Origin: Chloroflexi bacterium GWC2_73_18 | Lineage (GTDB): Bacteria > Chloroflexota > Limnocylindria > Limnocylindrales > CSP1-4 | Direction of reading: 5' to 3' | NCBI GenBank assembly: GCA_001794945.1 | Contig: MGMJ01000007.1 | Coordinates: 1 to 34,341 of the forward strand | Length of the DNA stretch: 34,341 nucleotides | Shown: one piece after another, positions 1 through 22,245 of the stretch | How the letters are laid out: every line of letters starts with the position of its first letter | Numbering within the stretch: position 1 is the stretch's first letter | Position numbers and translations under genes: made by a program | Notes under the pieces: model-generated | Told to the model about the DNA's origin: nothing | Seen by the model: the letters and a program-made list of their open reading frames with translations, nothing else | The model's database searches: none

Positions 1-414
1 CAGGTTGATCGTCCAGCGGCAGTTGGCGGCGACCTGCAGATAGTACTGCCCCGGGGGCAGGCCCTCGATCTCGAGCTCCTGGGTGGTCAGCTTGCCGGGC
101 GGCGTGACGCCGATGGCGAGCGGGTAGCCGCGCCCACCGTCGACAGACTCGAGGAACGCCCCCACGTGGCCGGACTCCTGTCCCCGCGCGGCGATCGCCC
201 AGGTCACCAGGTAGTCGCCCCCCAACTCGAAGGGGGCGGTCCGCTGGCTCATCTCGCCGCTCAAGCCGATCGGCAGCGCGGCCGGCGCCCCGGTCTGCCG
301 GGCCCAGCGCTGGCGCCCGTACTCCGGGCTGCGGATGCGCCGGTAGATGACCCAGGCGACGGTGGGTCCGCCCAGGAGGAGAACGGCCAGGAGCGCTTCA
401 GCAAAGGGAGACAC
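1..414 (-). CDS. Partial CDS (C-terminus beyond window): N-terminally membrane-anchored hypothetical protein
   Basis: Open reading frame from GTG at 414 to window edge: VSPFAEALLAVLLLGGPTVAWVIYRRIRSPEYGRQRWARQ...LTTQELEIEGLPPGQYYLQVAANCRWTINL; one N-terminal TM segment; same orientation as the operon upstream. Confidence 0.6.
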   Translation of the reverse strand, partial: MSPFAEALLAVLLLGGPTVAWVIYRRIRSPEYGRQRWARQTGAPAALPIGLSGEMSQRTAPFELGGDYLVTWAIAARGQESGHVGAFLESVDGGRGYPLAIGVTPPGKLTTQELEIEGLPPGQYYLQVAANCRWTINL

Positions 415-471: not shown

Positions 472-1512
472 TCAGCCGCCGGCGCGCCGGGCGGGCGGTG
501 CCAGGTGCCGGGCGAGCGGGAGGAGCTGGGCCCGGATCGCCGGCAGCGTGGAGCGGCCGCCGACGTTGATGCGCCGCAGACGCAGCCACTCGGCGCGCCG
601 CAGCTCGTTGGTGCCCCGCTCGGTCGTGAAGGCGATCAGTACGCCCTCGGCGCGGAGCATGTCGATCACGGCCGGGTCGTGGGCCCCGCCGGGATAGGCG
701 AAGACGGGGGGCGCCGCGCCGATCTCGCGGCGCAGGTCCGCCAGCGAGCCGGCCAGCTCGTCGCGGGCTTCGGCGACGGGGATCCGATCCAGGAGCGCGT
801 GCGAGCGAGCGTGCGCCGCCAGCGCGACGCCGCGGGCCGCCAGGTCGCGCAGCTCGTCCCAGCCCAGGACGTCCGGCTCGGGCGGTGGCTGCAGGTCCCC
901 GGTGAGGTCATCGACGATGGCCATCGCCTGCGCGTGTGGCAGGGCCTTCAGGTGGTCTCGCAGCCGTCGGAAGGCGTGTCGCCGCTCACCCTCGCCGCCG
1001 AGCGGCAGCGCGCCGAGCGGCGTCTCGATGACCGTGGCGCTCGCCGCCGTGAGGGCGCGGTACAGACGGTCCCACCAGAAGCGCCGCTCCGGGTGGTCGG
1101 GGTAGGCCGTGGGCACGAAGAGGGTGACCGGCGCCCCCAGGCTCTCCAGGACCGGCCAGGCGTGTTTCCCGAAGTCGCGGTAGGCGTCGTCGAAGGTGAC
1201 CATGACGGCGCGCCGGGGCAGCCGCGCTCGCCCGGCGCGAACCTCGAGGAGTTCCCCCAGCGAGAGGGCTCGCCGCGCGCCGGCCAGGTGGCGCATCTGC
1301 GTCGCGAAAGCGGCGGGGGTGGCGCTGACCAGGCCGGGGTAGCGACCGGACGGGTCGTCCGGATGGGCGACGCGGTGGTAGGTCAGGACGGGCAGCAGGT
1401 CGTCGCGGCCGCCGTCGAGTCGCTCGAGAAGCTCGACCAGCCGGGCGAAGGCCCGGCTCTGCGCGGCGAAGGACATGAGCGCGGCGGTCAGCCGATCAGC
1501 CCCCACGGCCAA
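472..1512 (-). CDS. Polysaccharide deacetylase family protein (NodB homology domain)
   Basis: Motifs LPVLTYHRVAHPDDP, VMVTFDDAYRDF (TFDD), HARSHALLDR, FAYPGGAHD typical of CE4/NodB enzymes. Confidence 0.88.
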   Translation of the reverse strand: MAVGADRLTAALMSFAAQSRAFARLVELLERLDGGRDDLLPVLTYHRVAHPDDPSGRYPGLVSATPAAFATQMRHLAGARRALSLGELLEVRAGRARLPRRAVMVTFDDAYRDFGKHAWPVLESLGAPVTLFVPTAYPDHPERRFWWDRLYRALTAASATVIETPLGALPLGGEGERRHAFRRLRDHLKALPHAQAMAIVDDLTGDLQPPPEPDVLGWDELRDLAARGVALAAHARSHALLDRIPVAEARDELAGSLADLRREIGAAPPVFAYPGGAHDPAVIDMLRAEGVLIAFTTERGTNELRRAEWLRLRRINVGGRSTLPAIRAQLLPLARHLAPPARRAGG

Positions 1513-2719
1513 GCTTCCTGGTCACCCTGGCGGCGATCTTCAGGATCTCGGCCGCCCCCGGCCGCGGGTCGTCGCAGGCCAGGATGTCGTAGCGTGCCGA
1601 CGGCGAAACGAGGCTGGCCGCCGCAGCGAGCGCGTCGCGCCGGCGCGGGCGCGGCAGGGAGCGTTGGCGGCGCCGGCCGGCGAGGACGGAGCCGATCCAG
1701 ACGACCTCGAGCTCCAGGTTGTGCGCGCGTACCCCGATCCTGTAGGTCGTGGCGGGCGCCGCGGCGTCATCGGGGGGCCCCGAGAGGTAGAGGTCGGCCA
1801 TGCGCGCCGGGAAGTCCATCCCGCTCGCCACGGCCAGGGGGAGCGAGCCCCAGATCCGGCCGTTGATCTCCATCAGGCGCGGGCCGTCGGGCCCGACCTT
1901 GAACTCCACCATGGCCAGGCCGCTCCACTCGAGCGCCGCGAGCAGCCGCACGGCCTGCCCGTAGAGAAGCGGGTCGAGCGGCACGCTCTCGCGGTAGGCG
2001 CTCGCCCCGCCGGTGAGCGGTACCTCGCGCAGCCGGCGGTGCTGGAAGGCGGCCAGCGGGCGCCCGCGGTGAAGCAGCAACTCGACGCCGTGCCCCTCGC
2101 CGCGGCAGAGCTCCTGGAGGAGGACCGGGCTGCGGCCCTCCAGGCGCCTCATGCGGGCCCTCAGCTCCGCCTCGTCGGCGGCGTAGGCGACCTCGAAGGC
2201 CCGCAGCCCATCGGCGTGGCGGGCGCGCGATGCGCGGGGCTTGAGGACGACCGGGAAGCCGATCTCCGCCCCCGCCGAGACCGCCGCGCCGACCGTTTCC
2301 ACCAGCCGGGTGCGCGGGGTCGGTACGCCGAGCCGCTCGGCAAGCTGGAGCGTGGCCAGCTTGTCGCCCGTGGCGGCGAGCGCGGCCGCGTCCGGCAGGG
2401 CCAGCGTGGTGAGACCGGCGAAGCGCTCACGGGCCGCGGAGAGGGGCAGGACGATCTCGTCCGTGACCGGCACGAGCAGGTCGACGCCGCGTTCACGGGT
2501 GGCGACCAGGAGCGCCTCGACGACCTCTTGCGGGTCGCGTTGTGGCCGCGGGTAGCGGAGCCGCTCGCTCGTGAAGCGGCTGTAGAAGCCGGGGCTGCGC
2601 GGATCCGCGTCGGCGGCGATGACGTGCCACCCACGCCGCCCCAGTGAGCGGATGACGGCGATCGCGCTGCCCCGCCCCGCGTCGGTGACGAGGACGCGCG
2701 GCGCGCGACGGTCAGCCAC
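1496..2719 (-). CDS. ATP-grasp domain protein (carbamoyl-phosphate-synthase-like / carboxylate-amine ligase type)
   Basis: VLVTDAGRGSAIAVIRSLGRRGWHVIAADADP..., PVTDEIVLPL, GFPVVLKPRASRA, GLAMVEFKVGPDGPRLMEINGRIWGSLPLA (ATP-grasp metal-binding E..N pattern). Confidence 0.8.
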   Translation of the reverse strand: MADRRAPRVLVTDAGRGSAIAVIRSLGRRGWHVIAADADPRSPGFYSRFTSERLRYPRPQRDPQEVVEALLVATRERGVDLLVPVTDEIVLPLSAARERFAGLTTLALPDAAALAATGDKLATLQLAERLGVPTPRTRLVETVGAAVSAGAEIGFPVVLKPRASRARHADGLRAFEVAYAADEAELRARMRRLEGRSPVLLQELCRGEGHGVELLLHRGRPLAAFQHRRLREVPLTGGASAYRESVPLDPLLYGQAVRLLAALEWSGLAMVEFKVGPDGPRLMEINGRIWGSLPLAVASGMDFPARMADLYLSGPPDDAAAPATTYRIGVRAHNLELEVVWIGSVLAGRRRQRSLPRPRRRDALAAAASLVSPSARYDILACDDPRPGAAEILKIAARVTRKLGRGG

Positions 2720-3422
2720 GCGGAGTCGCCGCGCTCCCGCGGCGCGCCGCCCGGGAGGCCGCGAAGTCGCGGATCAGCTCGCCCACGGCGGCGGTCACGT
2801 CGTCGGCCGGAAGGCCCGCATCGACGACGGCGAACTCCGGCATCCGGTCGGCCAGGTCGAGGTACTCCCGGCGCCGTCGCGCGAGCGTCTCGAGCGTCCC
2901 CTCGCCCTTGCGGGCCAGGAGCATCTCGGGTGGGGCGTCGAGGTAGATCACCAGGTCGGGACGGGGGTAGATCCGCGAGAGGAAGAGGCCGTGGATCCGG
3001 CGCGTGAGCGGGCGCCCCACGCCGACCACGTCGGTGGCGTAGTAGTCGACGAGGAAGTGGCGGTCGAAGAGCACGATCGCGCCGCGGCGCAGGTAGACCC
3101 ACGCCAGGGCCTGGCGGTACGTTTCCTCGGCCAGGCGGTTGAGGAGACGGAGCCACGCCCGCGCCTCGGCGCTCGCCCGCCCGAGCGCACCCTTCGGGCG
3201 CCTGGCGGCGCGGGCCGGATCCGGGGGCCCCGCCTCGGGCGCCCTGCCGCGCGCCCGCCGGATCGCCCGGACGAGCCGCGTCGTGGGGAGCAGGCGGTTG
3301 CTCGAAGTCGGGTTGACGCCCATGTAGAGGTAGCGGACCGGGAGCCCCAACGCGCGCTCGAGCCGGCGCGCCACGGTCGTCTTGCCCGCCCCGTCGGGTC
3401 CGATGAGGGCGACGGTGAACAC
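2712..3422 (-). CDS. Thymidylate kinase-like P-loop kinase
   Basis: MFTVALIGPDGAGKTTVARRLERAL (Walker A), FDRHFLVDYY, LVIYLDAPPEMLLARKGE (TMK-like LID region). Confidence 0.75.
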   Translation of the reverse strand: MFTVALIGPDGAGKTTVARRLERALGLPVRYLYMGVNPTSSNRLLPTTRLVRAIRRARGRAPEAGPPDPARAARRPKGALGRASAEARAWLRLLNRLAEETYRQALAWVYLRRGAIVLFDRHFLVDYYATDVVGVGRPLTRRIHGLFLSRIYPRPDLVIYLDAPPEMLLARKGEGTLETLARRRREYLDLADRMPEFAVVDAGLPADDVTAAVGELIRDFAASRAARRGSAATPRG

Positions 3423-3425
3423 GGC

Positions 3426-4673
3426 TCAGCCTCGCGCGACCGTCTGCAGCACGCGCTCGAGCCGCCCGGCGCTGCGTGCCCAGTCGAAGTGCGCCTCGAC
3501 GAAGGCGCGCGCCGTCCGATCCGGCGTCGGGTCGCCGCGGACCGCCGCCAGCCGGGCGGCGAGCAGGCCCGCCAGCTCCTCCGCGGTGCGGCCGATCGCG
3601 ACCGGAGGGTCCCGCCCGTCCTCCGTTCGCAGCCCGTCGGCGGCGATCGGCGAGGCGACGACGGGCACTTCCATCGCCATCGCCTCGAGCACCTTGTTCT
3701 GGATCCCAGCCCCGAAGCGGAGCGGCGCGGCGAAGACCGCCGCCCGCTCCAGGTAGGGCCGCACGTCGTCGACGAAGCCGGTGACGGTGACCCCGACGCG
3801 CCCGCCCGCGGCCAGCAGCCGCCGCGTCGGATCGCGGCCGACGATCCACAGCTGCGCCCGTGGCTCGCGCGCCCAAACGAGCGGCAGGATCGTCTCGACC
3901 AGGAAGAGGGCGGCATCCTCGTTGGGCGGGTAGTCCATGGCCCCGGTGAAGACGATCGCGTCGCGGCCGAGCTCCGGGCTCCCGCGCACCCAGTAGGCGA
4001 GGTCGACACCGTTCGGCACGACGGTCGCTCGCGGTTCCCCGGCCGTCGCCGCCGCGCCGCTCCCCAGCAACTCCTGGAGGTCGCGTGCCGAGGCGAAGAG
4101 GAGCGCGTCGGCCTCGGCCATGAGCGATCGCTCCGCGCGCCGCACCGCCGCGTAGTCGAGCCACAGGAGTGGCCGCTGCAGCCGGTGCGCATAGCGCAGA
4201 CTGCCCCTGATCCGGCTCGAGGTCGCGTCGCAGAGGTCGGCCACGACCGGGATCCCCGCCAGCGCCGGGACGACCGGGTAGGTCCGCTTGCCGCTCACCA
4301 GCAGCAGGTCGAACGGGGCTTCGCGGTGGAGAGCGCGGGCGGCCGCGACGAGCTGCCGGACCGCATCGTCCGTGCCCCGGCCCAGCACGAGCGTGCGTAG
4401 CCGGGCGACCGCCTTGCGGCGGAGCGAGCGGGAGCGTGCAGTCGAGGCGAACGTCAGGATGGCGCTGGTGAAGGGCGCCAGTGCCGAGGCGTGTTCCTGC
4501 CGGAAGTCGGCCCCGATGATGGAGAGGAGGCTCACCGCGTGACGTCGCGAGAGCTCCCGGATCAGGAAGTAGTGGCGCAGGTAGCCGCTGGTGAGGGGGT
4601 AGGGGAAGCCGTTGGTGACGTAGAGGATGCGCATCCCGGATCCGCTGGCCGGCGCTCGGTCCGCCGCCGTCAT
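3426..4673 (-). CDS. Glycosyltransferase, family 4-like
   Basis: MRILYVTNGFPYPLTSGYLRHYFLIRELSRRH...VVPNGVD...IVGRDPTRRLLA...VTGFVDDVRPYLERAAVFAAPLRFGAGIQNKVLEAMAMEVPVVASPIAADGL. The start may be an internal ATG (MRIL, around 4634) rather than 4673. Confidence 0.85.
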   Translation of the reverse strand: MTAADRAPASGSGMRILYVTNGFPYPLTSGYLRHYFLIRELSRRHAVSLLSIIGADFRQEHASALAPFTSAILTFASTARSRSLRRKAVARLRTLVLGRGTDDAVRQLVAAARALHREAPFDLLLVSGKRTYPVVPALAGIPVVADLCDATSSRIRGSLRYAHRLQRPLLWLDYAAVRRAERSLMAEADALLFASARDLQELLGSGAAATAGEPRATVVPNGVDLAYWVRGSPELGRDAIVFTGAMDYPPNEDAALFLVETILPLVWAREPRAQLWIVGRDPTRRLLAAGGRVGVTVTGFVDDVRPYLERAAVFAAPLRFGAGIQNKVLEAMAMEVPVVASPIAADGLRTEDGRDPPVAIGRTAEELAGLLAARLAAVRGDPTPDRTARAFVEAHFDWARSAGRLERVLQTVARG

Positions 4674-6439
4674 CGTACACGCCCGGCGCTTCGGCCCCGT
4701 AGCGGGAGCGCCCGGTCCGCATCACCGGCGTGGGCGACGGCGTCGCGCCAGATGGCGTGGTAGCGGTTCGCGCGGAGCCAGGCCGCGGTCTCCGGTCCGA
4801 GCTTCGTGACGGCAACCGGCCCAGGGGCGACGCCGTCCGCCTCCCCCAGGAGACGGTCCAGCAGCCCCGTCGCGTAGCGCGCCCAGCAGGCGACCTGGAG
4901 CGGGCCCACCAGCGAGGGCTCGAGCCCGATCCGCTCGGCATAGCGGCGCACCGATGGCGCGGCCCATGCGCCGGGTCCGTGGAACGCCTCGCGCACGGCG
5001 GCCCGCTGCTCCTGGGTCGTCCGGGCGGCGCGACGGGCGAAGGCGACGTAGGCCAGGAAGAAGAAGAGGTCGTGGGCCGGCAGCCCGCGCGGCTCCGCGA
5101 GCTCCCAGTCGACGACGCCGACCTCGCCTCCGGGCAGGCGCAGAAGGTTGGGGTGGCTCAGGTCGCCGTGCTCGAAGACGAGCGGGAAAGCCGCCTCGCG
5201 GAGCGGCGCCACGAGCTCCACGGTCCGCGCGACGAGCCCGGCCTCCTCGCCCCCGTCGGGGAACGCCGCGGCGAAGCGCTGGAGCGGCACGCCGAGCAGC
5301 CGCTCGTACCAGCCGCTCGCGGTGGCGTCCCCGTCGGATCGCGGCAACTCGGTCAACCAGGCCAGCACGCTCTCGAGCGTCCGGCTCGGCTCGCGCCGGA
5401 CGGTCGCCGGGTCGAGCGGGCGCCCGACCAGCGCCGTCTCGACGAGCAGAGCGCGATCGGCCAGGCGCTCGAGGGCCACCACGCGGGGGGCGGTGGCGTA
5501 GCCCTCCGGACGCGCCCCCTGGAGCGCCTCGAGGGCGGCCGCCTCCCGCGCGATCCCGGCGCCGTCGTCGGGGAGGCGGGGCACCTTGACGACCAGCCGG
5601 GGCCGGTCGTCCCGCCGCCCCGCGACGAGGAAGACGACGTGGCGCGAGGCACGGAAGCGCGGGGTGACGAGGACGAAGCTCAGCTCGTCGCCCAGCCCGT
5701 GCCGTGCCAGCTCGAGGCGGGTCCGGTGGGTGGCGAGGAAGGCGAGGACGGCGTTCCCGACCGGGCGCGGCCCCGTGCCATCGCCGGCGGCGCCGGGCGA
5801 CGACCGCCGCGCCAGGAGGCTGACGTGAGGTAGGAGCGCGGCGAGCCACGTGGCGCCGAGGAGACGTGCCACGAACCCGGCGGGCCGGGCCAGCGGGCCG
5901 AGTCCGCGCCGACGGAGGGCAAGGCGCAGGACCCCCGGGTCGCCGAGCGGGACGATCTCGGTGCAGGAGGCGAAGTCGGGCCAGTGCCAGTACGCCTGGA
6001 TCTCGTCCAAGCCGAGCGCCCTCACGGCGGCCAGCACGGCACGGCGCGGGCCGGCGCCGAGCGGCCAGGGGGTGCGTCGTGACGGCCCGGGCAGCTCGGC
6101 GTAGAGCCGGCCCCCGGGCCGGACGAGTGCCGCGGCCCGTCCGAGCGTCTCGGTCGAGGGGCCCGTGGCGATCACCAGGTCGTACCCGCTCTCGGTCGGG
6201 CGCTCCGGATGCCAGCCGGCCGCGTCGCCCACGGTGCCCGGCTCGGTGATCGCCGGGACGGCGCCGAGCAGCCGCAGCGACTCGAGCATCGCCCGATCCG
6301 TGACGCCGACGCAGGCGACCCTCGCCAGTGCAGGATCCGGCAGCAGGAAGCGCCAGTCGGCGCGTCGCGAGGCCTGCAGGAGCGCATCGCGATCGGGACG
6401 CTGCTCCTCCGCCGGCACCGCTCGTTCGCTCAACGACAC
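4670..6439 (-). CDS. Two-domain protein: N-terminal Rossmann/methyltransferase-like region + C-terminal APH-type phosphotransferase
   Basis: C-terminal VFEHGDLSHPNLLRLPGGEVGVVDWELAEPRGLPAHDLFFFLAY (HGDxxxxN ... DW motif of aminoglycoside phosphotransferase/choline kinase fold). Paralogous organisation to 7574-9331. Confidence 0.75.
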   Translation of the reverse strand: MSLSERAVPAEEQRPDRDALLQASRRADWRFLLPDPALARVACVGVTDRAMLESLRLLGAVPAITEPGTVGDAAGWHPERPTESGYDLVIATGPSTETLGRAAALVRPGGRLYAELPGPSRRTPWPLGAGPRRAVLAAVRALGLDEIQAYWHWPDFASCTEIVPLGDPGVLRLALRRRGLGPLARPAGFVARLLGATWLAALLPHVSLLARRSSPGAAGDGTGPRPVGNAVLAFLATHRTRLELARHGLGDELSFVLVTPRFRASRHVVFLVAGRRDDRPRLVVKVPRLPDDGAGIAREAAALEALQGARPEGYATAPRVVALERLADRALLVETALVGRPLDPATVRREPSRTLESVLAWLTELPRSDGDATASGWYERLLGVPLQRFAAAFPDGGEEAGLVARTVELVAPLREAAFPLVFEHGDLSHPNLLRLPGGEVGVVDWELAEPRGLPAHDLFFFLAYVAFARRAARTTQEQRAAVREAFHGPGAWAAPSVRRYAERIGLEPSLVGPLQVACWARYATGLLDRLLGEADGVAPGPVAVTKLGPETAAWLRANRYHAIWRDAVAHAGDADRALPLRGRSAGRVR

Positions 6440-7572
6440 AGCGGCCCCAGCGCCTCGAAGAGAGACGCGATCCGGACGGGGTAGGGGTGCTCCACGAGGT
6501 ACGTCGGCTTCCCGGCCAGGACGCGCAGGAGGGCCTGGAGCTCGAGCTCCGCCGCCTGCTCGATGAGCGGGTTGGCAGCTCCCGGGAAGGCGAAGCGGTA
6601 CTCCAGGTAGCGTGCGAGGAAGTCGAGGCGTTCGTGCTGGAGGGAGAAGACCATGCGACGGGCCACGTCGGTCGGGTCGACCGGCTCGACGTGCACGTCG
6701 GGCCGGTCGGCGCTGACGACGAAGAAGAGCCGGTCGAAGCTGCCGCTCGGGCGGATCGCCCGGTCGCCGAACAGTCGCACCGGGGCGACGTCGACGTGGG
6801 CCTGCCGCTCGAGCACCGGCATCAGCCGACCGAGGGCGCGGCCAGGAGCCGTCCCCTGCCGGAGCGCCCGCGGCGTCGCGCCATGGAGCCCCCGCGCCAG
6901 GGCGATGGCACGCAGGCGTGCGCGATCCCCGAGACCGATCCCCCGCCGGCGCTCGGGCAGCTGGGCGAGGTGCCAGTCCCAGAGGCGGATCGGTTCAGGG
7001 ATGCCGTGGATCCGCCGGCCGTCGCCGCTGACGTAGACCCACTCGTCGCCGATGTAGGCGGCGCCCGCGGCCATGAAGGCCAGCAACGTTTCGGTCTTGC
7101 CGCCCTTCGACCAGCCCGTGGTGACGACCCCCGTCCCGTTGTAGTCGAAGGCGGCGGCGTGGAGCGGGAGCGCCCCTTTCGCCAGCACGGTCAGGTTGAG
7201 GATCGGGATCAGGAGCGGCACCGCCGGGAGCCCTCGCTCGCAGACGATCTCGCAGGGGCCGCCGACGAGCTCGAGCGGGATGCGGACCCGCGCCGGTGCC
7301 TTGTGGCGGCTGCGGAGGACCAGGAAGGCGTCGTCGCTGAAGGCGGCCTCCCCCAGTCCGAGGTAGCGCAGCCGGCCGGCGGTGCGCAGCCGGTCGACGA
7401 AGCGGATCACCAGGTCCGGCGCGCCCTCCAGGGGCGCCTCGATGGGACCGAGCTGGCGCCGCACGGCAGCCGCGTCGCCGGGCGAGGCGTCGAGGAGACG
7501 GATGCCGGCGAGGCCGTGCAGATCGAAGTCGACCGCCCCCGTGCCGGAACGGCGCGCGCCCGGGTCGGCCAT
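6430..7572 (-). CDS. HPr kinase-like (HprK-related) serine kinase-fold protein
   Basis: 380-aa form starting MADPGARRSGTGAVDFDLHG; Walker A-like GTGVVTTGWSKGGKTETLLAFMAAGAAYIGDEWVYV. The longer 634-aa ORF overlaps the upstream gene and its extension is not supported. Confidence 0.65.
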   Translation of the reverse strand: MADPGARRSGTGAVDFDLHGLAGIRLLDASPGDAAAVRRQLGPIEAPLEGAPDLVIRFVDRLRTAGRLRYLGLGEAAFSDDAFLVLRSRHKAPARVRIPLELVGGPCEIVCERGLPAVPLLIPILNLTVLAKGALPLHAAAFDYNGTGVVTTGWSKGGKTETLLAFMAAGAAYIGDEWVYVSGDGRRIHGIPEPIRLWDWHLAQLPERRRGIGLGDRARLRAIALARGLHGATPRALRQGTAPGRALGRLMPVLERQAHVDVAPVRLFGDRAIRPSGSFDRLFFVVSADRPDVHVEPVDPTDVARRMVFSLQHERLDFLARYLEYRFAFPGAANPLIEQAAELELQALLRVLAGKPTYLVEHPYPVRIASLFEALGPLCR

Positions 7573-7573
7573 G

Positions 7574-9331
7574 TCAGGCCGCCGGGGCCCCCGCCGGCCG
7601 GGGCGTCCCCTCCGCCCTTCCGGTGAAGAGGCGGGCGAGCGTCGGTGCCTGCCGCCGTGCCATGCCGAGGTGCAGCAGGCGCAGGTAATGGCCCTGCCCG
7701 AGGGCGGCCGGCTCCAGGCGCGTCGCCTCCTTGAGAGCGCGGTGCATCCAGCAGAGGTGGAAGAGCGGCTCGACGTAGCGGCGGGCGATGCCGATGCGCT
7801 GGCAATGGCGCCCCACGGCATCGACCAGGAGCCGGCCGAGCGGTGCCTCCGCCAGGACACGCCGCGCATACGCCTCCAGGGGATCCCCGATGCGGCCCGC
7901 CCGTGCGCCCGAGACGGCGAACGAGCGGAGCAGGTAGAAGAGATCCCAGAGCGGCATCCCGAGCGGCTCGGCTGCCTCCCAGTCGAGGAACGCCACCCTC
8001 CCGTCGGGCCGCACGATGAGGTTCCACGTCCCCGGGTCGCCGTGCTGGAAGACGAGCGGGAAGGGCGTGTCGGCGGCCGCGATCGCCTGCACCTGGGCGG
8101 CCAGGAAGGCCTCCTCCGCCGCTGTGGGCCGGTAGGTCGCGGAGAAGCGCTCCAGGAGGGCCCCGAGGGCCGCGGCGACCCGGTTCGGCTCGGCCCACTG
8201 GACGCTGGCCGCGCCCAGCTCGGCCAGCCACTCGACGGCGTCGGCCAGGTAGGGGCAGTCGGCCGTCCAGCGGGACCGCTTCCGGAAGGGCGTGCCGCCG
8301 GCGAGCGATTCGCCGACGACCTCGAGGCCGGCATGACGCCCGTGGAAGAGGAGCCGCGGCGCCCGCTCCGCCCCGATCACGCCGAGGGCCGCCAGCTTGC
8401 CGAGCGCCGCCGACTCGTTCGCCAACCGCGGGCCGAGGTCGGGCGTGCGCGTCATCTTCACCAGCCCCTCGACGCCTCCGAGGAGCACGAAGAGGACCTT
8501 CTGGGAGTTGTAACGGCCGCGGGCGGAGAGTCCCCAGCGGGCGCCGCGCAGGTCGATGCTGGCCTCGGCGGCGATCCGGCGGAGATAGCGCGGCGGCCCC
8601 GCGGCAAGCGCCCCATCGGGGTCCGGGTGGGTCGCCACGATCGCCCCCGCGCGCGGGACGATCCGCTCGGCCAGGGAGTCCAGGACGCCCCGCGCCGGTG
8701 CCCTCTCCAGGAGGCGGCGACCGACGCGCCCGAAGGGCGCCGCGACGAGTGGCCCGGCGAGGTCACGGCGGACCAGGTGACGGGCCGTGGCGCGGTCGCC
8801 GAGCGGTATGGCCGAGCGGACCTCCCCCGCGGCCGGTGAAAGCCGCAGCAGGAGCGACTCCGCGCCCCTCCGACCCAGGGCGCCGAGGAAGGCGCCGTCG
8901 AGCCGCCAGGACCGGGGGCCGCGGCCTTCCAGGTAGACCAGCCCCTCGCGCGACAGCAGCGGCGAGAGGAAGGCAGCCAGGCGCTCCCCGTGGAGCCGGT
9001 AGCCCCCGGTGAGCGGCCAGGCCAGGTCGACGCTCCCCGCCGCCAGGCGTCCGGCCGCGTCGAGATCCGCGATCCTGACCTCCCGCCAGCCCTGCCGGTC
9101 GGCGACGGCGGCCAGGCGGTCGCGGGCGCGGCGGTCGTCGGTACAGACGGTCAGCGCGCGGGCAAGCCGCGCGAGGGTCGCGAGTGACGTCTCGGGCGGC
9201 TCTCCCAGGCAGAGGACGTGCCCCAGCTCCAGGCTCGGCAGGAGGAACGACCAGGCGGCGCCGGCGGCGCCGTCCTTGAGGTTGCTCCCCGGCTCGAAGC
9301 GGGCGGCAAGGGTCGTCGGGAGGATCGTCAT
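7574..9331 (-). CDS. Two-domain protein: N-terminal methyltransferase-like region + C-terminal APH-type phosphotransferase (paralog of 4670-6439)
   Basis: WSFLLPSLELGHVLCLGEPPE parallels WRFLLPDPALARVACVGVTD of the paralog; C-term VFQHGDPGTWNLIVRPDGRVAFLDWEAAEPLGMPLWDLFYLL. Confidence 0.75.
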   Translation of the reverse strand: MTILPTTLAARFEPGSNLKDGAAGAAWSFLLPSLELGHVLCLGEPPETSLATLARLARALTVCTDDRRARDRLAAVADRQGWREVRIADLDAAGRLAAGSVDLAWPLTGGYRLHGERLAAFLSPLLSREGLVYLEGRGPRSWRLDGAFLGALGRRGAESLLLRLSPAAGEVRSAIPLGDRATARHLVRRDLAGPLVAAPFGRVGRRLLERAPARGVLDSLAERIVPRAGAIVATHPDPDGALAAGPPRYLRRIAAEASIDLRGARWGLSARGRYNSQKVLFVLLGGVEGLVKMTRTPDLGPRLANESAALGKLAALGVIGAERAPRLLFHGRHAGLEVVGESLAGGTPFRKRSRWTADCPYLADAVEWLAELGAASVQWAEPNRVAAALGALLERFSATYRPTAAEEAFLAAQVQAIAAADTPFPLVFQHGDPGTWNLIVRPDGRVAFLDWEAAEPLGMPLWDLFYLLRSFAVSGARAGRIGDPLEAYARRVLAEAPLGRLLVDAVGRHCQRIGIARRYVEPLFHLCWMHRALKEATRLEPAALGQGHYLRLLHLGMARRQAPTLARLFTGRAEGTPRPAGAPAA

Positions 9332-9337
9332 CGCCCG

Positions 9338-10906
9338 TCAGCCGCCCAGCAGCCACCGCGCGAGGGGGAGGCGCAGGAGCTCGGGGAAGGTGTGGCCGAT
9401 CTTGAGCACCGTCCGGCCGGCGGCCAGGACCACCACCGACGCGATCCCGACGAGGACCAGGTTGACGGCGATCGCCGGCCGCAGGGCGACCTGCACGACG
9501 AGGAGACCGCCCACCGCCCCGGCGATGACGAGGTAGACGCGCAGGTAGCGCGGCTCGAAGAGGCTGATGCCGGTGCCCAGCCGCAGCCCCGCCTGCTTGA
9601 GGACGTTGTGGGCGATGAGCGTCGCGCAGGTCCCGATCGCCGCCCCGAGGGCGCCGTAGCGCGGGATGAGGACCAGGTTGAGGGCCACGTTGACGGCGGC
9701 CGCCAGGAGGTTGATGACGAGGACGAAGCGGAGCTTGCCGAAGACCTTGAGGGTGAGCCCGTTGAAACCGAGCGCGGTGTTGAAGTAGTAGCCGAACGAC
9801 AGGAGCGCAAGGTAGACGGCCGACTCCTCGTAGCGCGCCTCGTAGAGGGCGACGGTGAGGGGCCCCGCGAGCGAGAAGGTGAGGGCGAAGATCGGAAAGG
9901 AGAAGACGGCCATCCAGATGGCCGTCTGCCAGTAGAGGTCGTTTATCCCCTCTCGATCGTGACGCGCGAAGAGCCGCGCCGCGAGGGGCGTGAAGAGGAG
10001 GGTGAAGCTCGAGAAGACGAGCTGGTTGAGGCCGGCCGCCGGCTGGATGACCCGGAAGGCGCCCACCTCGGGCGCACCCCGGAAGTAGCCGAGCAGGACG
10101 GCGTCCGAGGTGTTCATGAGGATGTAGAGGATGTCCGAGCTGAGGAGCGGGATGGTGAAGCCGAAGACCTCGCGCACAGGGAAGCGCAGCTGCCCGGGTC
10201 GCAGCCGGGCGAGGAGGCCCCGGTCGTCGAGCAGCCGGACCAGGATGACCGAGTAGATGGCCAGGCCGGCGACGCCGGCGAGGAGGTAGCCGAGGGCCAG
10301 GAACGAGGCGCCGCTCCCGCCGAGGATCAAGAGGACGACGACCGCGAGCCGCAACCCCGGCGCGAGGACGTACCTGCGGAAGAAGATGGCCCGCGGGCTG
10401 GCGAAGACGGCGAAGAGGCCAGTGACCAGGTCGTCGAGCGCCTGGACCGGCGCCAGGACGATCAGGATCAGGAGGAGCGCGATCGCCTGGGGATCGCTGA
10501 CGAGCGCGCCACCCAGCCACGCCTGCAGGCCGTAGACGACGAGGAGGAGCGCGACCCCCAGCGAGAGGATCGTCCCCGTCACCATGACGAGCGTACCGAA
10601 CAGCTTGTCATCGGCGCGCTGCTCGTCGTAGATGGGGATGAAGCGGGTGACCGCGCGGTCGAGCCCGAAGGTGACCAGGCTCTGGCCAAAGGCGACGATC
10701 GAGAGGGCATAGGCGAAGGCGCCGTAGTCGGTCTTCGTCAGGTAGCGGACGATCAGGATCTGGACGACGAAGTTGACCGCCATGGACAGGGTCCGCCCCG
10801 CCAGCAAGAGGGTCGAGCCGCGGATCTGCGTGGACGTTGCGCTGGGCGCGCCGCGCGAGCGTGGTTCGAGGGGTTCGATCGTCTCGAGCACGGCCGAGTC
10901 GGTCAT
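9338..10906 (-). CDS. Polysaccharide flippase (Wzx/MATE-like, ~12+ TM)
   Basis: MTDSAVLETIEPLEPRSRG...GRTLSMAVNFVVQILIVRYLTKTDYGAFAYALSIVAFGQSLVTFGLDRAVTRFIPIYDEQ...; start placed at the ATG at 10906 because upstream extension in the 725-aa ORF overlaps the adjacent gene. Confidence 0.85.
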   Translation of the reverse strand: MTDSAVLETIEPLEPRSRGAPSATSTQIRGSTLLLAGRTLSMAVNFVVQILIVRYLTKTDYGAFAYALSIVAFGQSLVTFGLDRAVTRFIPIYDEQRADDKLFGTLVMVTGTILSLGVALLLVVYGLQAWLGGALVSDPQAIALLLILIVLAPVQALDDLVTGLFAVFASPRAIFFRRYVLAPGLRLAVVVLLILGGSGASFLALGYLLAGVAGLAIYSVILVRLLDDRGLLARLRPGQLRFPVREVFGFTIPLLSSDILYILMNTSDAVLLGYFRGAPEVGAFRVIQPAAGLNQLVFSSFTLLFTPLAARLFARHDREGINDLYWQTAIWMAVFSFPIFALTFSLAGPLTVALYEARYEESAVYLALLSFGYYFNTALGFNGLTLKVFGKLRFVLVINLLAAAVNVALNLVLIPRYGALGAAIGTCATLIAHNVLKQAGLRLGTGISLFEPRYLRVYLVIAGAVGGLLVVQVALRPAIAVNLVLVGIASVVVLAAGRTVLKIGHTFPELLRLPLARWLLGG

Positions 10907-10994
10907 CGCGTCGCGGGACCGATCATCATGGCCGCACGATGCGGCCCGCCGCGGCCGAACGCAAGCGTCGCTCCCCCGGGGGCGTTGACCGCCG

Positions 10995-12362
10995 TCAACG
11001 GGCCAGCCGCGCGGCAAAGCGCCGCCACACGACGGTCGTGACCGTGCGCCGGACCTCGTCACCGGAACGGGAGGCGTCGACCACCTCGAGGCGCGGGACG
11101 ACTCCCCGCAGACCCAGGTAGGCTCGCCGCTGCCGCTCGAGCCGCGCGACATCCTGCTCGCCGGAGCGCCGGTGGAGCATCTCGGCCGGGGCGTCGAGGA
11201 GGATGGTGGCGTCCGGCGCCGGGAGGGCGTGGGCGAGCAGCCAGCGGCGCAGTCGGGCCAGGCGACCAAGCGGTCGCGGGACCGGAAGGAGAGCGTCATA
11301 GGTGTACCGGTCGTAGACGACGAGACGCCCGCGGGCCCGCTGGTAGCTGGCCGCGAGGTACGCGCGCCAGAGGCGCAGGATCCGCCGCGCCAGGCCGCGT
11401 CGCGGAGCCGGTCCACCCGGCGCCGCCGTGGGGTAGAGGCCCAGGTAGAAGCGCCGCACGGGCACGAAGAACGTCGCCTCCAGGCCGGCGGCCAGGCTCG
11501 ACTTGCCGGCTCCATCCGGACCGAGGAGCGCCACGGTCAGGCCGCGGCGCCTGAGCGGGACCAGGAGGCGTGTCAGGCGCCGCAGCACGAGTGCGGCGGC
11601 GGTTCGCCGGCCCACCTCCAGCGGGTGACCTCTCGTCCAGCGCGCTCGGATGCGGCGGCCGAGCGCGCGGAGGGTCGGCCAGTCGGCAGCGCGCACATGC
11701 TCCACCACCGTGACGAGCTCGATGCCCGGCGGCAGCGCGGCCGCTATCCAGCGGGCGAGCGGCCCCTCTCCCACGGCCGCCTCGGCGAGCTGCCGCAGGC
11801 GGGCCGCGGCCCCGGGTCGCACCGTGGCCCGGTCCAACAGGCAGTGCAGGAGGAGCGCCCAGAAGGCATCCTCGACGCTCAGCAGGGTGAGGGGACCGCG
11901 CGGCCGCCTCCGCTCGAGGCACGCCTCGGCCGCCCGGGTCCGGAGCGCCTGCGCGGGGCCGAAGGAGAGCTCGGTGACGACGTCGAGCTTGAGCCAGCGG
12001 TCCTCCGTCGCGTCGTAGGCGATGTAGAAGCGATGCGAACCGCGGCCCCAGGCCGGCCAGGCCGCCCAGCCGAGGGGTCGCAGGGCCGGTCCCACGCGAG
12101 TCCCGTCGGCCGGCGCCACCAGGACGTCGACGTCGTCGACCGGCTCGGCCAGGCGGTCCTCGCCGCGCAGGAGGCACCAGGCGATCCCTGCGCGATCGAG
12201 CCCCTCGAAGGCCGCTCGGAGCGCCGGGCGGATCTCCGCCCCGGCGCCCTGCGCGACGGACTCCCCATCGGCCGGTGCCGATCCTCGCTCGACCGCGATG
12301 GCTCCACCTCCCGTGCTCCGGTTCCGGCCGTACGCTCCTTCAGGACGATACAATGCCCGCAC
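10995..12362 (-). CDS. Fusion: N-terminal nucleotidyltransferase-like domain + C-terminal thymidylate-kinase-like P-loop kinase
   Basis: N-term LDRAGIAWCLLRGEDRLAEPVDDVDVLVAPADG (NTase-like DVDVLV); C-term LTVALLGPDGAGKSSLAAGLEA, VVYDRYTYDALLPVPRPLG, ATILLDAPAEMLHRRSGEQD. Start uncertain: the GTG at 12362 is the only in-frame GTG close to the divergent gene; an RBS-like GGGAGGTGG lies just downstream of it. Confidence 0.7.
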   Translation of the reverse strand: MRALYRPEGAYGRNRSTGGGAIAVERGSAPADGESVAQGAGAEIRPALRAAFEGLDRAGIAWCLLRGEDRLAEPVDDVDVLVAPADGTRVGPALRPLGWAAWPAWGRGSHRFYIAYDATEDRWLKLDVVTELSFGPAQALRTRAAEACLERRRPRGPLTLLSVEDAFWALLLHCLLDRATVRPGAAARLRQLAEAAVGEGPLARWIAAALPPGIELVTVVEHVRAADWPTLRALGRRIRARWTRGHPLEVGRRTAAALVLRRLTRLLVPLRRRGLTVALLGPDGAGKSSLAAGLEATFFVPVRRFYLGLYPTAAPGGPAPRRGLARRILRLWRAYLAASYQRARGRLVVYDRYTYDALLPVPRPLGRLARLRRWLLAHALPAPDATILLDAPAEMLHRRSGEQDVARLERQRRAYLGLRGVVPRLEVVDASRSGDEVRRTVTTVVWRRFAARLAR

Positions 12363-12452: not shown

Positions 12453-14195
12453 ATGATGGGCGGCCGCATTCGGCGCGCGCCGTGGACGGCCCTGTTCGTC
12501 CTTGGATTGGCTATCGCCGCGGGCGGCGCTTTCCTCCTCTCCCGCGGCGGGTCGGTGGCCCAGACCGGCGGCTACCTCGTGACCTCGTCCGAGCTCGCGC
12601 AGCGCAACCAGCTCGCTGGGCAGGGCGCCGAGCCCTACGCCAGCGCCGTCAGCGAGCTGCTCTCCGACGCCGGGGCGGCGCTCACGACCAGCCCCTCGCC
12701 GATGCAGCCGCTCAAGATCAGCGGCACCGACGGCCCCTTCGTCGACGACACGGCGACCACCTACGCGCTCGGCCTGGCCTACGGCGTGACGGGCGACCGG
12801 CGCTACGCCACGAAGGCTCACCAGTTCATCATGGCCTGGGTCCAGACGACGACCACGACCGAGGACACCTGCTCCGGGGGCGGCTGCCAGACCTCGCTCG
12901 TCATCGGCCGGACCGCCGCCGGCTTTGTCTTCGCCGCGGACCTGATCCGCCCCTCGGGGGTCCTCTCGGGTGCCGACGAGGCCGCCTTCAAGGCCTGGCT
13001 GCGCGACGTCATCCTGCCCACCGCCTCGACCGAGACGACCAACAACTGGGCCGACGCCGGGGTGCTGATGCGCGTCACCGTGACCGACTACATCGGCGAC
13101 ACCACCGGCTTCAACAGGGCGATCGCGAAGTGGCGCGCGCAGATGGACCTGGTGGCCAGCGATGGCCACATCCCCGAAGAGACGCGCCGAGGCTCGTCGG
13201 GGATGAGCTACACGCAGGAGGCGCTCCAGTACAAGGTGGCTGCGGCACGCATCGCGGAGCGGCGCGGCGTCGATCTCTGGACCTATCAGGGGAGCCGCGG
13301 CGGGACGCTCAAGAAGGCGGTCGACTACCTGGCCTACTACTGGTTCCACCCGAGCGAGTGGCCGTGGGACAGCAGCGTCGACGTCCCCAGCCCCAACGGG
13401 ATGTGGGAGATCGCCTACGCCCGGTGGCGGAACCAGGCGTACGAGCCGATCATCCGGGAGCGACGGCCCTACGGCGGGTACGGCCACTCCGCCGTGCGCT
13501 GGACGACGCTGACCAACGGGATCCCTCTCGGCGACACGGTCCTCACCACGGGACCGCACGAACGTTTCGTCCCAGGCGAGCGATTGGGGACGGACAGCGT
13601 TCCGCTCGAGGTGAGCTGGTCGGCGATCGCCGGCCGGACCGGGCTGGCCGGCTTCGAGCTCGGCCAGCAGATCGACACGGCGCCCTACAAGAAGGTCGCG
13701 CTGCCGACGGCGATGGCCAGGCGCGTGGACCGGATGCTCGCACCGGGCCACACCTACCGGTTCCGGGCGCGGGCCGTCACCGGCGACGGGACCTGGGGTC
13801 CGTGGGGCTACGGGCCGAGCTTCCGCCTACGGCTCCTCCAGGAGACGAACACGGCCGTGCAGTACAGCGGGACCTGGAAGTCGGCCGCCTCTGCCTCCGC
13901 CTCCGGCGGTGGGCTTCGCTACGCCACCGCGGCCGGGGCCGAGGCGGAGCTCACCTTCGTGGGCCGCGATGTCGCGTGGGTGAGCATCGTCGGGCCGACA
14001 CGCGGCAGCACGGCGGTCTACGTCGACGGCGTCTACGTCGGGGCGATCGACCTCTACGCCGCCACGGCGTCGGTTCGCCAGATCGTCTTCGCGCGTTCCT
14101 GGGCCTCCTCGGCCCGCCACGTCCTGACCATCCGCGTCCTCGGCACCGCCGGTCGGCCGCGGGTCGACGTCGACGCCTTCCTCGTCTGCGCTTGA
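12453..14195 (+). CDS. Secreted alginate-lyase-like protein with C-terminal beta-sandwich-like module
   Basis: N-terminal TM/signal (RRAPWTALFVLGLAIAAGGAFLLS); DDTATTYALGLAYGVTGDRRYATKAHQFIMAWVQT...ETTNNWADAGVLMRV...ALQYKVAAARIAERRGVDLW resembles the alginate lyase superfamily (PF05426-type); C-term YSGTWKSAASASASGGGLRYATAAGAEAELTFVGRDVAWVSIVGPTRGSTAVYVDGVYVG... Confidence 0.72.
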   Translation: MMGGRIRRAPWTALFVLGLAIAAGGAFLLSRGGSVAQTGGYLVTSSELAQRNQLAGQGAEPYASAVSELLSDAGAALTTSPSPMQPLKISGTDGPFVDDTATTYALGLAYGVTGDRRYATKAHQFIMAWVQTTTTTEDTCSGGGCQTSLVIGRTAAGFVFAADLIRPSGVLSGADEAAFKAWLRDVILPTASTETTNNWADAGVLMRVTVTDYIGDTTGFNRAIAKWRAQMDLVASDGHIPEETRRGSSGMSYTQEALQYKVAAARIAERRGVDLWTYQGSRGGTLKKAVDYLAYYWFHPSEWPWDSSVDVPSPNGMWEIAYARWRNQAYEPIIRERRPYGGYGHSAVRWTTLTNGIPLGDTVLTTGPHERFVPGERLGTDSVPLEVSWSAIAGRTGLAGFELGQQIDTAPYKKVALPTAMARRVDRMLAPGHTYRFRARAVTGDGTWGPWGYGPSFRLRLLQETNTAVQYSGTWKSAASASASGGGLRYATAAGAEAELTFVGRDVAWVSIVGPTRGSTAVYVDGVYVGAIDLYAATASVRQIVFARSWASSARHVLTIRVLGTAGRPRVDVDAFLVCA

Positions 14196-14209
14196 CGCGC
14201 GCTGCCGCC

Positions 14210-14479
14210 TCACTCGCGCCGGAAGCGGTAGATCGTCACCATGACGGCGCCGACCGTGATCAGCACGACGAGCACCGGGATGGCGGCGGCCTCGAGCTCG
14301 TCCGGCACGAGGTCGACCCGGCTGACGAGGACGAGGAAGGTCCCTAGGACCCCTGGCACGAGCCCGAGCGCCAGCTGCAGCCCGGTCGATCGCGAGGGGG
14401 CATGAAAGCGACGCGCAGCCACGACCGCCAGCCCCGACAGGACGATCCCGGCGAGGGCGATCAGCTCGATGCGCTGCAC
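14210..14479 (-). CDS. Small membrane protein (about 3 TM)
   Basis: MQRIELIALAGIVLSGLAVVAARRFHAPSRSTGLQLALGLVPGVLGTFLVLVSRVDLVPDELEAAAIPVLVVLITVGAVMVTIYRFRRE; strong hydrophobic periodicity; not overlapped by either neighbour's trimmed CDS. Confidence 0.6.
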   Translation of the reverse strand: MQRIELIALAGIVLSGLAVVAARRFHAPSRSTGLQLALGLVPGVLGTFLVLVSRVDLVPDELEAAAIPVLVVLITVGAVMVTIYRFRRE

Positions 14480-20675: not shown

Positions 20676-21674
20676 ATGCGCATCCTGGTGACCGGGGCGG
20701 CCGGCTTCGTGGGTTCCCACCTCTGCGAGCATCTCCTTGCCGAGGGCCACGAGGTCGTCGGGCTCGACGGCTTCATCGAGTCCTACCCCCGTGCGATCAA
20801 GGAGCGGAACCTGGCCGGGATGGGCAGCCATCCCCGCTTCACGTTCCACGAACTGGACCTGCGCACGGACCGCCTCGAGCCGAGCCTGGAGGGGGTCGAG
20901 GCGGTCGTCAACGAGGCGGCCATGGCCGGCCTCTCGCGCAGTTGGAGCGAGATGGAGCTCTACACGGGCTGCAATCTGCTGGCCGTGCGGCGGCTCGTCG
21001 ATGCCTGCCGCGCCCAGGGGGTCCGCCGCTTCCTGCAGATCTCGACCTCCTCCGTCTACGGGGTGGAGGCGGCGGGCGACGAGTCGATCCTCACCCGGCC
21101 CGTCTCGCCCTACGGCGTCACCAAGCTGGCGGCCGAGCATCTCGTGCTGGCATACGTCGACGCCTTCGGGTTCCCCGCCGCGATCCTGCGCTACTTCTCG
21201 ATCTACGGCCCACGTCAGCGGCCGGACATGGCCTACCACATCTTCATCGAGGCGCTGCGCGCCGGCCGGCCGATCACGGTCTACGGCGACGGCAGGCAAT
21301 CCCGCTCGAACACCTTCGTGACCGATTGTGTGCGGGGCACGGTCCAGGCGCTCGGCGGGGCCGAGACCGGCGAGGTCTACAACATCGGGGGCGGCGAGGT
21401 GATCACCCTGGCGGAGGCGATCGAGATCACGGCCGATGCGCTCGGGGTGCGACCGGTCGTGCGCCACGAGCCGGCGCGGCCGGGCGACCAGCGGCACACG
21501 CGGGCGGACACGACGAAGGCTCGGCTGGCCTTCGGCTACCGCCCCGCGGTGAGTCCCCGGGAGGGGCTGCGGGTCCAGGTGGACTGGCACCTCTCGGGGG
21601 GCACGCGTGCGGGCGCCGAACTCAGGCCCCCGACCCCTTCAAGACGGCCATCGCCGTCCACCACAGGATCTTGA
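20676..21674 (+). CDS. NAD-dependent epimerase/dehydratase (extended SDR, nucleotide-sugar epimerase)
   Basis: MRILVTGAAGFVGSHLCEHLLAEGHEVVGLDGF (GxxGxxG), ISTSSVYG, SPYGVTKLAAEHL (YxxxK), NTFVTDCVRGTVQAL. Confidence 0.9.
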   Translation: MRILVTGAAGFVGSHLCEHLLAEGHEVVGLDGFIESYPRAIKERNLAGMGSHPRFTFHELDLRTDRLEPSLEGVEAVVNEAAMAGLSRSWSEMELYTGCNLLAVRRLVDACRAQGVRRFLQISTSSVYGVEAAGDESILTRPVSPYGVTKLAAEHLVLAYVDAFGFPAAILRYFSIYGPRQRPDMAYHIFIEALRAGRPITVYGDGRQSRSNTFVTDCVRGTVQALGGAETGEVYNIGGGEVITLAEAIEITADALGVRPVVRHEPARPGDQRHTRADTTKARLAFGYRPAVSPREGLRVQVDWHLSGGTRAGAELRPPTPSRRPSPSTTGS

Positions 21675-22245
21675 GATCGAGGGCGAAGGACATCTCCTCG
21701 ATGTAGCGGATGTCGAGGCGCAGGCGCTCGTCGAAGGTCATGGCATTGCGCCCCTTCACCTGCCAGAGGCCCGTGATCCCCGGGGGGACCTCCAGCCGCT
21801 TCGTGTGCCAGAGCGCGTACGCGCTCGGGGCGAAGGAGGTCGGGCGCGGCCCGACAAGCGACATCTCGCCGCGCAGCACGTTGATGAACTGCGGTAGCTC
21901 GTCGAGGCTGGTGCGCCGCAGGAAGCCACCGACGCGCGTGATGCGCGGGTCGTTGGGGATCTTGAAGTCAGGCGGCGGCAGCACGTTGAGGTGAGCCAGG
22001 GTCGACTTCAGCTCCTCGGCGTTCCGAACCATGGTGCGGAACTTGAAGATGGGGAAGCGGACGCCGTGCTGGCCGGTTCGCTGCTGGGCGAAGACGATCG
22101 GTCCGGGCGAATCGAGACGGATGGCGATGGCGCAGAGCGCCATGAGCGGCGCCACGATCGGCAGGAGGGAAAGGCATAGCACCAGGTCGAAGAGGCGCTT
22201 GGTCGACATGTAGCCGCGAGGGGCGCCCGGCATCCAGACCGTCAA
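21622..22245 (-). CDS. Undecaprenyl-phosphate sugar phosphotransferase (bacterial sugar transferase, small PglC/WbaP-C-terminal type)
   Basis: [59 protein letters not shown]...[27 protein letters not shown]...[13 protein letters not shown]. Start uncertain (TTG at 22245 versus internal ATGs). Confidence 0.92.

Follow-up and report, generated by a model that had tools for sequence, protein, structure and literature searches.

The nine-gene operon described here forms, as judged from its sequence, the core of a polysaccharide locus of the Wzx/Wzy type. It lies in a window of 34,341 nucleotides, an entire contig of Chloroflexi bacterium GWC2_73_18. Its HprK-like and TMK-like kinases, together with the ATP-grasp ligase and the deacetylase, most likely represent a co-inherited cassette for a phosphorus-bearing substituent. 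We assign a probability of about 0.55 to the reading that this cassette builds and attaches a phosphorylated substituent, itself inferred, on an amino-sugar/uronate exopolysaccharide of the Wzx/Wzy type. The operon, the locus type, the linkage and the intact motifs are read from the sequence; a fold does not disclose the substrate of a kinase.

Operon layout and locus type

Nine open reading frames run head to tail on the minus strand of the window and are followed by a tenth, shorter one:

10995..12362, minus strand: NT-TMK, first gene of the operon (GTG start; TTG at 12365 also possible)
9338..10906, minus strand: Wzx-type flippase (PF01943, 74 bits)
7574..9331, minus strand: APH1, degenerate methyltransferase-like N-domain and APH-fold kinase domain, identified from a model
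6430..7572, minus strand: HprK-like kinase, a PEPCK/HprK-fold P-loop kinase, identified from profile and model
4670..6439, minus strand: APH2, degenerate methyltransferase-like N-domain and APH-fold kinase domain
3426..4673, minus strand: GT4 glycosyltransferase (PF13692, E=7e-27)
2712..3422, minus strand: TMK2, thymidylate-kinase-like P-loop kinase (PF02223, E=1e-8)
1496..2719, minus strand: ATP-grasp ligase, carbamoyl-phosphate-synthase-like/PF15632
472..1512, minus strand: polysaccharide deacetylase, PDA (PF01522, E=8e-15; TTG start, with GTG 1506 and ATG 1476 as alternatives)
1..414, minus strand: short 141-aa ORF, open, completed on contig G000:C12

An earlier note on this DNA had described a nine-gene coupled operon, and this description stood: all nine frames are open, their ends and junctions are as it gave them, and the sole 88-bp gap is the NT-TMK/flippase junction. 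The nine genes are thus real, but the extent of 472-12362 that it gave the operon was too short, as the operon continues past 472 and the ORF starting at 414 runs off the contig. The left end of the window shows an exact 53-base overlap with G000:C12, another contig of the same genome, on which the short ORF is completed. Beyond it lie four further genes on the same strand:

G000:C12 7572-9161, minus strand: Wzz/BY-kinase (Wzz and GNVR domains)
G000:C12 6585-7556, minus strand: GT4b, a second GT4, next gene after Wzz/BY-kinase, with an apparent GalE remnant
G000:C12 5446-6588, minus strand: GT2, the glycosyltransferase after GT4b
G000:C12 3941-5446, minus strand: Wzy/O-antigen ligase family protein (PF04932, 76 bits; polymerase and ligase not separated by sequence)

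Once this contig is counted, the full operon comprises at least 14 genes, with the nine genes as its front two-thirds. Nearly all the evidence comes from draft metagenome assemblies. Longest-ORF gene calling is unreliable on these high-GC contigs, where wrong-strand ORFs win, and therefore our conclusions are based on tblastn and profile hits.

Four further genes of the window complete the picture of the locus:

12453..14195, plus strand: probably secreted protein of the alginate-lyase family (PF05426, 108 bits), encoded divergently from the operon
21622..22245, minus strand: initiating sugar transferase (PF02397, 222 bits)
22242..22922, minus strand: 226-aa protein whose N-terminus is hydrophobic and which looks GGDEF-like, its gene coupled to that of the sugar transferase; no Pfam match
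23010..24434, minus strand: UDP-glucose/GDP-mannose dehydrogenase (three UDPG_MGDP_dh domains)

The dehydrogenase probably supplies a uronic-acid sugar, and a uronic-acid polymer fits both this enzyme and the alginate-lyase-family neighbour. Homologues of these four proteins also accompany the locus in relatives. The alginate-lyase-family protein is found beside it in L026, L028, L019 and L029, and the sugar transferase near the flippase or HprK gene in L029, L017, L022 and L015. In L029, the 226-aa protein occupies the equivalent place, and the UDP-glucose dehydrogenase gene adjoins those of the sugar transferase and the flippase.

Altogether, the flippase, the Wzy/O-antigen ligase family protein, the Wzz/BY-kinase and the initiating phosphoglycosyl transferase that define a Wzx/Wzy locus are all present. 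The operon had previously been taken not to be a standard Wzx/Wzy operon because the locus is truncated at the contig end; Wzz and Wzy lie on the adjoining contig, and the sugar transferase and UDP-glucose dehydrogenase genes at 21.6-24.4 kb. Nor is there only one glycosyltransferase, as GT2 and the second GT4 are encoded on the adjoining contig. That the operon serves a surface polysaccharide and has an unusually large share of kinases is, on the other hand, well borne out, and relatives hold the Wzx/Wzy parts and the kinase genes together in one locus. As in Wzx/Wzy-dependent exopolysaccharide loci, a flippase, Wzy/O-ligase, Wzz/BY-kinase, sugar transferase, UDP-sugar dehydrogenase, GT4 and GT2 are combined in one conserved locus. 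What sets the locus of the window apart from them is an ATP-grasp ligase and five predicted kinases, all with small-molecule folds, the core of this set being co-inherited.

Kinases and companion enzymes

Family assignments were above the Pfam cut-offs for the deacetylase, ATP-grasp ligase, TMK2, GT4 and flippase, and below them for the HprK-like kinase and NT-TMK; neither APH protein of the window had a match in the Pfam search. Catalytic motifs are intact in all five predicted kinases and in the ATP-grasp enzyme of the window, so the earlier concern that the kinases might be pseudoenzymes does not apply.

NT-TMK fuses an N-terminal nucleotidyltransferase-like domain (PF14907-like, E=0.0015) to a thymidylate-kinase-like P-loop kinase (Thymidylate_kin, E=6e-4), both scores lying under the curated cut-offs. 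Its best matches in a PDB profile search are thymidylate kinases, and its D-x-D, Walker A (GPDGAGKSS) and DR(Y/H) motifs are kept in L022 and L026. In TMK2, the Walker A, DRH and RK motifs are invariant. The HprK-like protein matches an HprK profile at E=1e-5, with PF07475 itself below its cut-off; its AlphaFold model (pLDDT 93) leads by Foldseek to the PEPCK/HprK fold, and H138, GWSKGGKTE and GDEW are conserved.

The AlphaFold model of APH1 (pLDDT 82) has WbdD, APH(3') and methyltransferases as its best Foldseek matches. HGD-x4-N, D450 and K292/E306 are present in the window protein; one relative (L014) has HGN in place of HGD. APH2 is supported by the NCBIfam APH(3') model (E=4e-6) and by its L019 relative (PF01636, 62 bits), and its HGD..HPN and DWE motifs are invariant across eight sequences. 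Both APH proteins carry an N-terminal methyltransferase-like domain, which the earlier note did not mention. The two N-domains are homologous (hhalign 97.6%), that of APH2 is an ORF of its own in several relatives such as L019, and the GxGxG motif is absent from the alignments of both, so that the SAM motif is lost.

As regards the remaining genes, a simple 19-residue scan of the flippase gives eight hydrophobic segments. The E284-I-N-G-R motif of the ATP-grasp enzyme is invariant, with 54-60% identity in relatives. Hydropathy revealed no membrane-like segment in the deacetylase, which is probably cytoplasmic.

Conservation in relatives and a possible phosphonate branch

The neighbourhood comparison that had been suggested as a check on the operon gave a clear answer: relatives keep the gene order, at identities that mostly lie between 35-60%. 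The order in L026, from another genus (33-65% identity), is identical: NTTMK>FLIP>APH1>HPRK>APH2>GT4>TMK2>GRASP>PDA>WZZ>GT4b. The stretch HPRK>APH2>GT4>TMK2>GRASP>PDA recurs in L016, L017, L019, L020 and L022. At 19 HprK loci, many of them cut by contig ends, we found TMK2 in 13, PDA in 11 and the flippase in nine, each in 0/16 control stretches; indeed, none of the 16 stretches, taken from related genomes, contained any of the nine genes. By these counts, the eight other genes recur at HprK loci beyond chance. The tight linkage of the HprK-like and TMK-like kinases is evident at sequence level: in a survey of 177 genomes of the class, TMK2 was on the same contig in all seven genomes with HprK (Fisher p=8e-12), and the distance matrices of the two proteins correlate (Mantel r=0.76). 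Where HprK and TMK2 stay paired, NT-TMK and APH genes are in many cases missing.

In some relatives, a 2-hydroxyacid dehydrogenase (HADH), a PEP-mutase-family protein and another ATP-grasp take the place of the APH genes. Locus L023 carries APH1>HPRK>HADH>PEP mutase>ATP-grasp in one run. Its PEP mutase scores 403 bits against a cut-off of 320, and its signature EDKMFPKTNS agrees with the EDKxxxxxNS of true PEP mutases. This locus resembles the phosphonoglycan clusters that are based on PEP mutase. By contrast, the L025, L028 and L047 loci (HPRK, TMK2, HADH, PEPM-like, GRASP2) have EDNLFPKRNS, with EDN instead of EDK. Geodermatophilus sp. LHW52908 (L024), which may be in culture, combines HprK with the flippase and has a PEP-mutase-like gene at another place in its genome. 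In some cases, then, the substituent of the relatives would be a phosphonate made through PEP mutase and 2-hydroxyacid dehydrogenase. A phosphonate in the window's own genome was rejected, as no PEP-mutase-family protein was found there, and the phosphonate link thus comes from the relatives only.

Proposed function and alternatives

The polymer probably contains uronic acid and an amino sugar. We propose that the cytoplasmic deacetylase would free the amine of a lipid-linked amino sugar, onto which the ATP-grasp enzyme would couple a carboxylic acid. The HprK-like and TMK-like kinases would phosphorylate this acid or its precursor. APH1 and APH2, with their WbdD-like layout of methyltransferase-like and kinase domains, may add phosphate to hydroxyl groups on the sugars of the lipid-linked glycan, which the flippase, Wzy and Wzz would then export and polymerise. 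A phosphorylated or acylated glycan is our best guess, and the PEP-mutase-containing versions of the locus lend it indirect support.

A broader idea, which we advance tentatively, is that the HprK-like, TMK-like, ATP-grasp and deacetylase core constitutes an undescribed mobile glycan-tailoring module adding phosphorus-bearing acids to exopolysaccharide. It would be fed by APH-fold kinases in the window (phosphate esters) or by PEP mutase and 2-hydroxyacid dehydrogenase in L023 and its kin (phosphonates). Our literature search found no description of such a kinase/ligase/deacetylase group. Searches on Chloroflexi exopolysaccharide clusters, on APH/TMK/ATP-grasp capsule loci, on HprK-related kinases with exosortase and on exosortase with ATP-grasp and deacetylase returned nothing relevant. 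If the proposed function is right, the linked HprK-like/TMK2 pair would offer a sequence handle on phosphorus-decorated exopolysaccharides of bacterial groups from which few members have been cultured, and the PEP-mutase-bearing relatives would tie phosphonate synthesis to exopolysaccharide. For kinases with HprK and thymidylate-kinase folds, it would also point to a likely role in glycan tailoring in which they act on small molecules.

A rather unlikely alternative is that the kinases serve precursor synthesis: the APH-fold proteins, as sugar-1-kinases, would work with the nucleotidyltransferase domain and the TMK-like nucleotide kinases to make an unusual NDP-sugar or other nucleotide-activated monomer, the polymer itself being free of phosphorus. 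APH-fold sugar kinases are well known, and NT-TMK does fuse a nucleotidyltransferase-like domain to a TMK-like kinase. Nucleotide activation is also common in phosphonate cell-surface pathways (PMC6697681). However, precursor synthesis leaves the HprK-like kinase, and the PEP mutase in the cassette of relatives, unexplained. Moreover, HprK and TMK2 frequently persist together without NT-TMK and APH genes, which indicates that the conserved core is something other than the presumed kinase-transferase pair.

We consider it improbable that APH1 and APH2 control chain length by capping the chain as it grows, in the manner of WbdD, with the HprK-like protein acting as a regulatory protein kinase. 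In E. coli, the O9a O-antigen is capped by WbdD, a kinase-methyltransferase (PMC3482155). WbdD is the best structural match of APH1; in it, too, the kinase domain comes after an N-terminal methyltransferase fold, and its gene likewise belongs to a polysaccharide operon. Nevertheless, overall TM-scores are low (0.21-0.28), so that domain order is shared but relative orientation is not. The absence of GxGxG makes part of the resemblance non-catalytic, and the APH1 model lacks the long C-terminal coiled coil of WbdD. The APH1 and APH2 profiles had no sequence match in the PDB; with the SAM motif lost in both N-domains, close homology to WbdD was rejected. Furthermore, WbdD serves an ABC-transporter pathway, whereas the window holds a Wzx/Wzy locus in which chain length is already served by Wzz/BY-kinase. 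Regulation might be hinted at by the nearby protein with a GGDEF-like look, but searches for HPr (PF00381) came up empty for the window's genome and for seven of the nine others covered, the seven controls being positive. An HPr kinase/phosphorylase role was therefore rejected.

A ribosomal-peptide (lasso-type) system is extremely improbable: HPr-kinase homologues phosphorylate and putative nucleotidyltransferases glycosylate the peptide in paeninodin and pseudomycoidin clusters (PMC8498205), but here PqqD (PF05402) had no match in the window's genome, with positive controls, and the locus offers full polysaccharide machinery and no recognised lasso cyclase or protease. With HPr kinase/phosphorylase and the lasso-peptide kinases, the HprK-like protein shares the P-loop, conserved histidine, acidic motif and HprK/PEPCK fold, a similarity limited to the P-loop region.

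In exosortase A (XrtA/PEP-CTERM) loci, too, polysaccharide genes occur together with those for PF14907 proteins and HprK-related kinases. An XrtA system was rejected, since exosortase (PF09721) had no match in the window's genome (89.6% complete), the control genome being positive. HprK_rel_A scored 15.7 against a cut-off of 200. The locus recalls these systems in its GT4, whose nearest family is TIGR03087 of the XrtA system (231 bits, under the cut-off of 317), and in a ligase of L019 that resembles TIGR03097.

The locus and its polymer machinery

On re-reading, the nine minus-strand open reading frames at 472-12362 have the ends and junctions reported in the earlier note. Five family calls (deacetylase, ATP-grasp, thymidylate-kinase-like, GT4 and flippase) are backed by Pfam and NCBIfam. 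Profiles from these libraries are weak for the HprK-like kinase, the NT-TMK protein (nucleotidyltransferase-like plus TMK-like kinase), and APH1 and APH2 (methyltransferase-like N-domain plus APH-fold kinase), calls that are backed by motifs in alignments. For the HprK-like protein, an AlphaFold model (pLDDT 92.8) has PEPCK and HprK as closest solved relatives, and the APH1 model (pLDDT 81.7) matches WbdD, APH(3') and methyltransferases.

The window spans all of contig C7 (34,341 bases) of a draft genome of 2.93 Mb, which comprises 137 contigs and is 89.6% complete. When Wzz and Wzy of relatives were used as queries on this genome, matches fell on one other contig, C12. The window's left end overlaps that contig's right end by 53 identical bases, and the reading frame at window 1-414 is completed across the join (141 aa). 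The proposed join is based on this overlap and on synteny with the related locus L026, where the order is likewise deacetylase > Wzz > (GalE) > GT4b.

C12, same strand, after the 141-aa frame: Wzz/BY-kinase, GT4b, GT2, Wzy_C/O-antigen-ligase protein
Window 21.6-24.4 kb: initiating sugar transferase, 226-aa protein, UDP-glucose dehydrogenase, ordered as beside the flippase in L029

Given these genes, the polymer machinery is of the ordinary Wzx/Wzy type, contrary to the earlier suggestion that this is not a standard Wzx/Wzy operon. The unusual operon described in the earlier note is real but was under-called, since it belongs to a conserved kinase-bearing Wzx/Wzy exopolysaccharide locus rather than standing alone. 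The GT4b gene (C12 6585-7556; L085) lacks its own N-terminal part and opens, in frame, with about 20 residues resembling a GalE start, which indicates a deletion or misassembly within this gene; at this site in relatives, the GalE and GT4 genes are longer.

Searches of this 90% complete draft turned up no exosortase, PqqD or HPr. Within that limit, the locus was taken to be neither an XrtA system nor a lasso-type peptide system nor a PTS regulator.

Gene order and distribution in relatives

Around 19 HprK-like loci we found conserved arrangements of two types, bearing out the neighbourhood conservation that the earlier note had proposed to check. None of the nine genes occurs in 16 control stretches.

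Gene order at HprK-like loci
Type A (window, L016, L017, L019-L022, L026): [NT-TMK] > flippase > APH1 > HprK-like > APH2 > GT4 > TMK2 > ATP-grasp > deacetylase > Wzz > GT4b > GT2
Type B (L025, L028, L047, part of L048): flippase > HprK-like > TMK2 > 2-hydroxyacid dehydrogenase > PEP-mutase-like > ATP-grasp (GRASP2) > deacetylase > Wzz
Mix of A and B (L023): APH1 > HprK-like > 2-hydroxyacid dehydrogenase > PEP-mutase-family > GRASP2

The core common to both types comprises flippase, HprK-like kinase, thymidylate-kinase-like TMK2, ATP-grasp and deacetylase. Type A loci are often interrupted by contig ends or lie in two divergent halves (L022), and one half of the L047 locus is inverted.

The HprK-like family was surveyed by two protein searches and by profile searches class-wide (177 genomes) and phylum-wide. 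Full-length copies number seven in the 177 class genomes (profile search, E below 1e-100), and an even draw of 400 phylum genomes gave a single clear member beyond the class, in G249 (E=5e-99). By these searches, the family is rare and scattered. This occurrence, together with homologues in Geodermatophilus and Nocardioidaceae, suggests horizontal transfer. The high GC content (71-76%) and homologues labelled Chloroflexi suggest that the host lineage is class Limnocylindria of Chloroflexota. TMK2 and HprK co-occur (Fisher p = 8e-12, relatedness not corrected for), and their distance matrices correlate across 12 loci (Mantel r = 0.76, p = 2e-4), shared host ancestry contributing. APH1 is present in only 2/177 class genomes, both type A.

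Proposed tailoring chemistry and a likely phosphonate branch

Among the nine proteins, only the flippase has membrane-like segments, and the deacetylase is probably cytoplasmic. A cytoplasmic deacetylase adjoining an ATP-grasp ligase suggests that an amino sugar would be deacetylated and then acylated; the acyl group, or a precursor of it, may then receive phosphate from the kinases.

The N-domains of APH1 and APH2 are paralogous (hhalign 97.6%); the methyltransferase fold is seen on the APH1 model, and the GxGxG motif is absent from both. E. coli WbdD phosphorylates and methylates the O9a chain end (PMC3482155). The APH proteins resemble it in domain order and folds but do not match its SAM site and coiled coil. 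The N-domain and kinase of APH2 are separate reading frames in L019, and APH1 of L014 (6167-7954) has HGN, not HGD, at the catalytic aspartate.

Published work distinguishes PEP mutases within their family by the signature EDKxxxxxNS (PMC6697681). By both motif (EDKMFPKTNS) and score (403 bits), the L023 protein counts as a PEP mutase. In this lake Chloroflexi MAG, the APH1 and HprK-like genes are followed immediately by those for PEP mutase, 2-hydroxyacid dehydrogenase and ATP-grasp (L023:3551-6909, +), in what is likely a phosphonate-decorated polysaccharide locus. The PEP mutase reaction must be pulled by a favourable downstream step (PMC7858074), which the adjoining dehydrogenase could provide by reducing phosphonopyruvate. 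The PEP-mutase-family protein of L028 reaches 249 bits, short of the cut-off of 320. It belongs to a subfamily with conserved EDNLFPKRNS instead of the signature (L025:5523-6455, L028:7210-8106, L047 about 14097-14969), adjoining a PGDH-like dehydrogenase and possibly catalysing a different reaction. The window's genome yielded no PEP-mutase-family protein, nor did most of the other type A genomes searched; the type A-like genomes L014 and L021 have only a distant member on another contig.

Flanking genes

12453-14195 (+): alginate-lyase-family protein, transcribed divergently from the operon
14870-18649, 18692-20668, 26918-29446 (+) and C12 301-1788: large, apparently secreted proteins
22242-22922, 29533-30573 (-): shorter proteins of GGDEF-like appearance
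30610-32613 (-): GGDEF protein with two domains

Homologues of the alginate-lyase-family protein, which may trim the polymer, adjoin the locus in four relatives. At least three of the four large proteins have in common a domain with KPxSKLWxxDGxWW, which is also encoded next to the locus in L026, L028 and L049; one large protein carries PKD and CBM96 domains and another Ig-like repeats. The GGDEF and GGDEF-like neighbours make c-di-GMP control possible, and the 226-aa protein (22242-22922) keeps its position beside the sugar transferase in L029.
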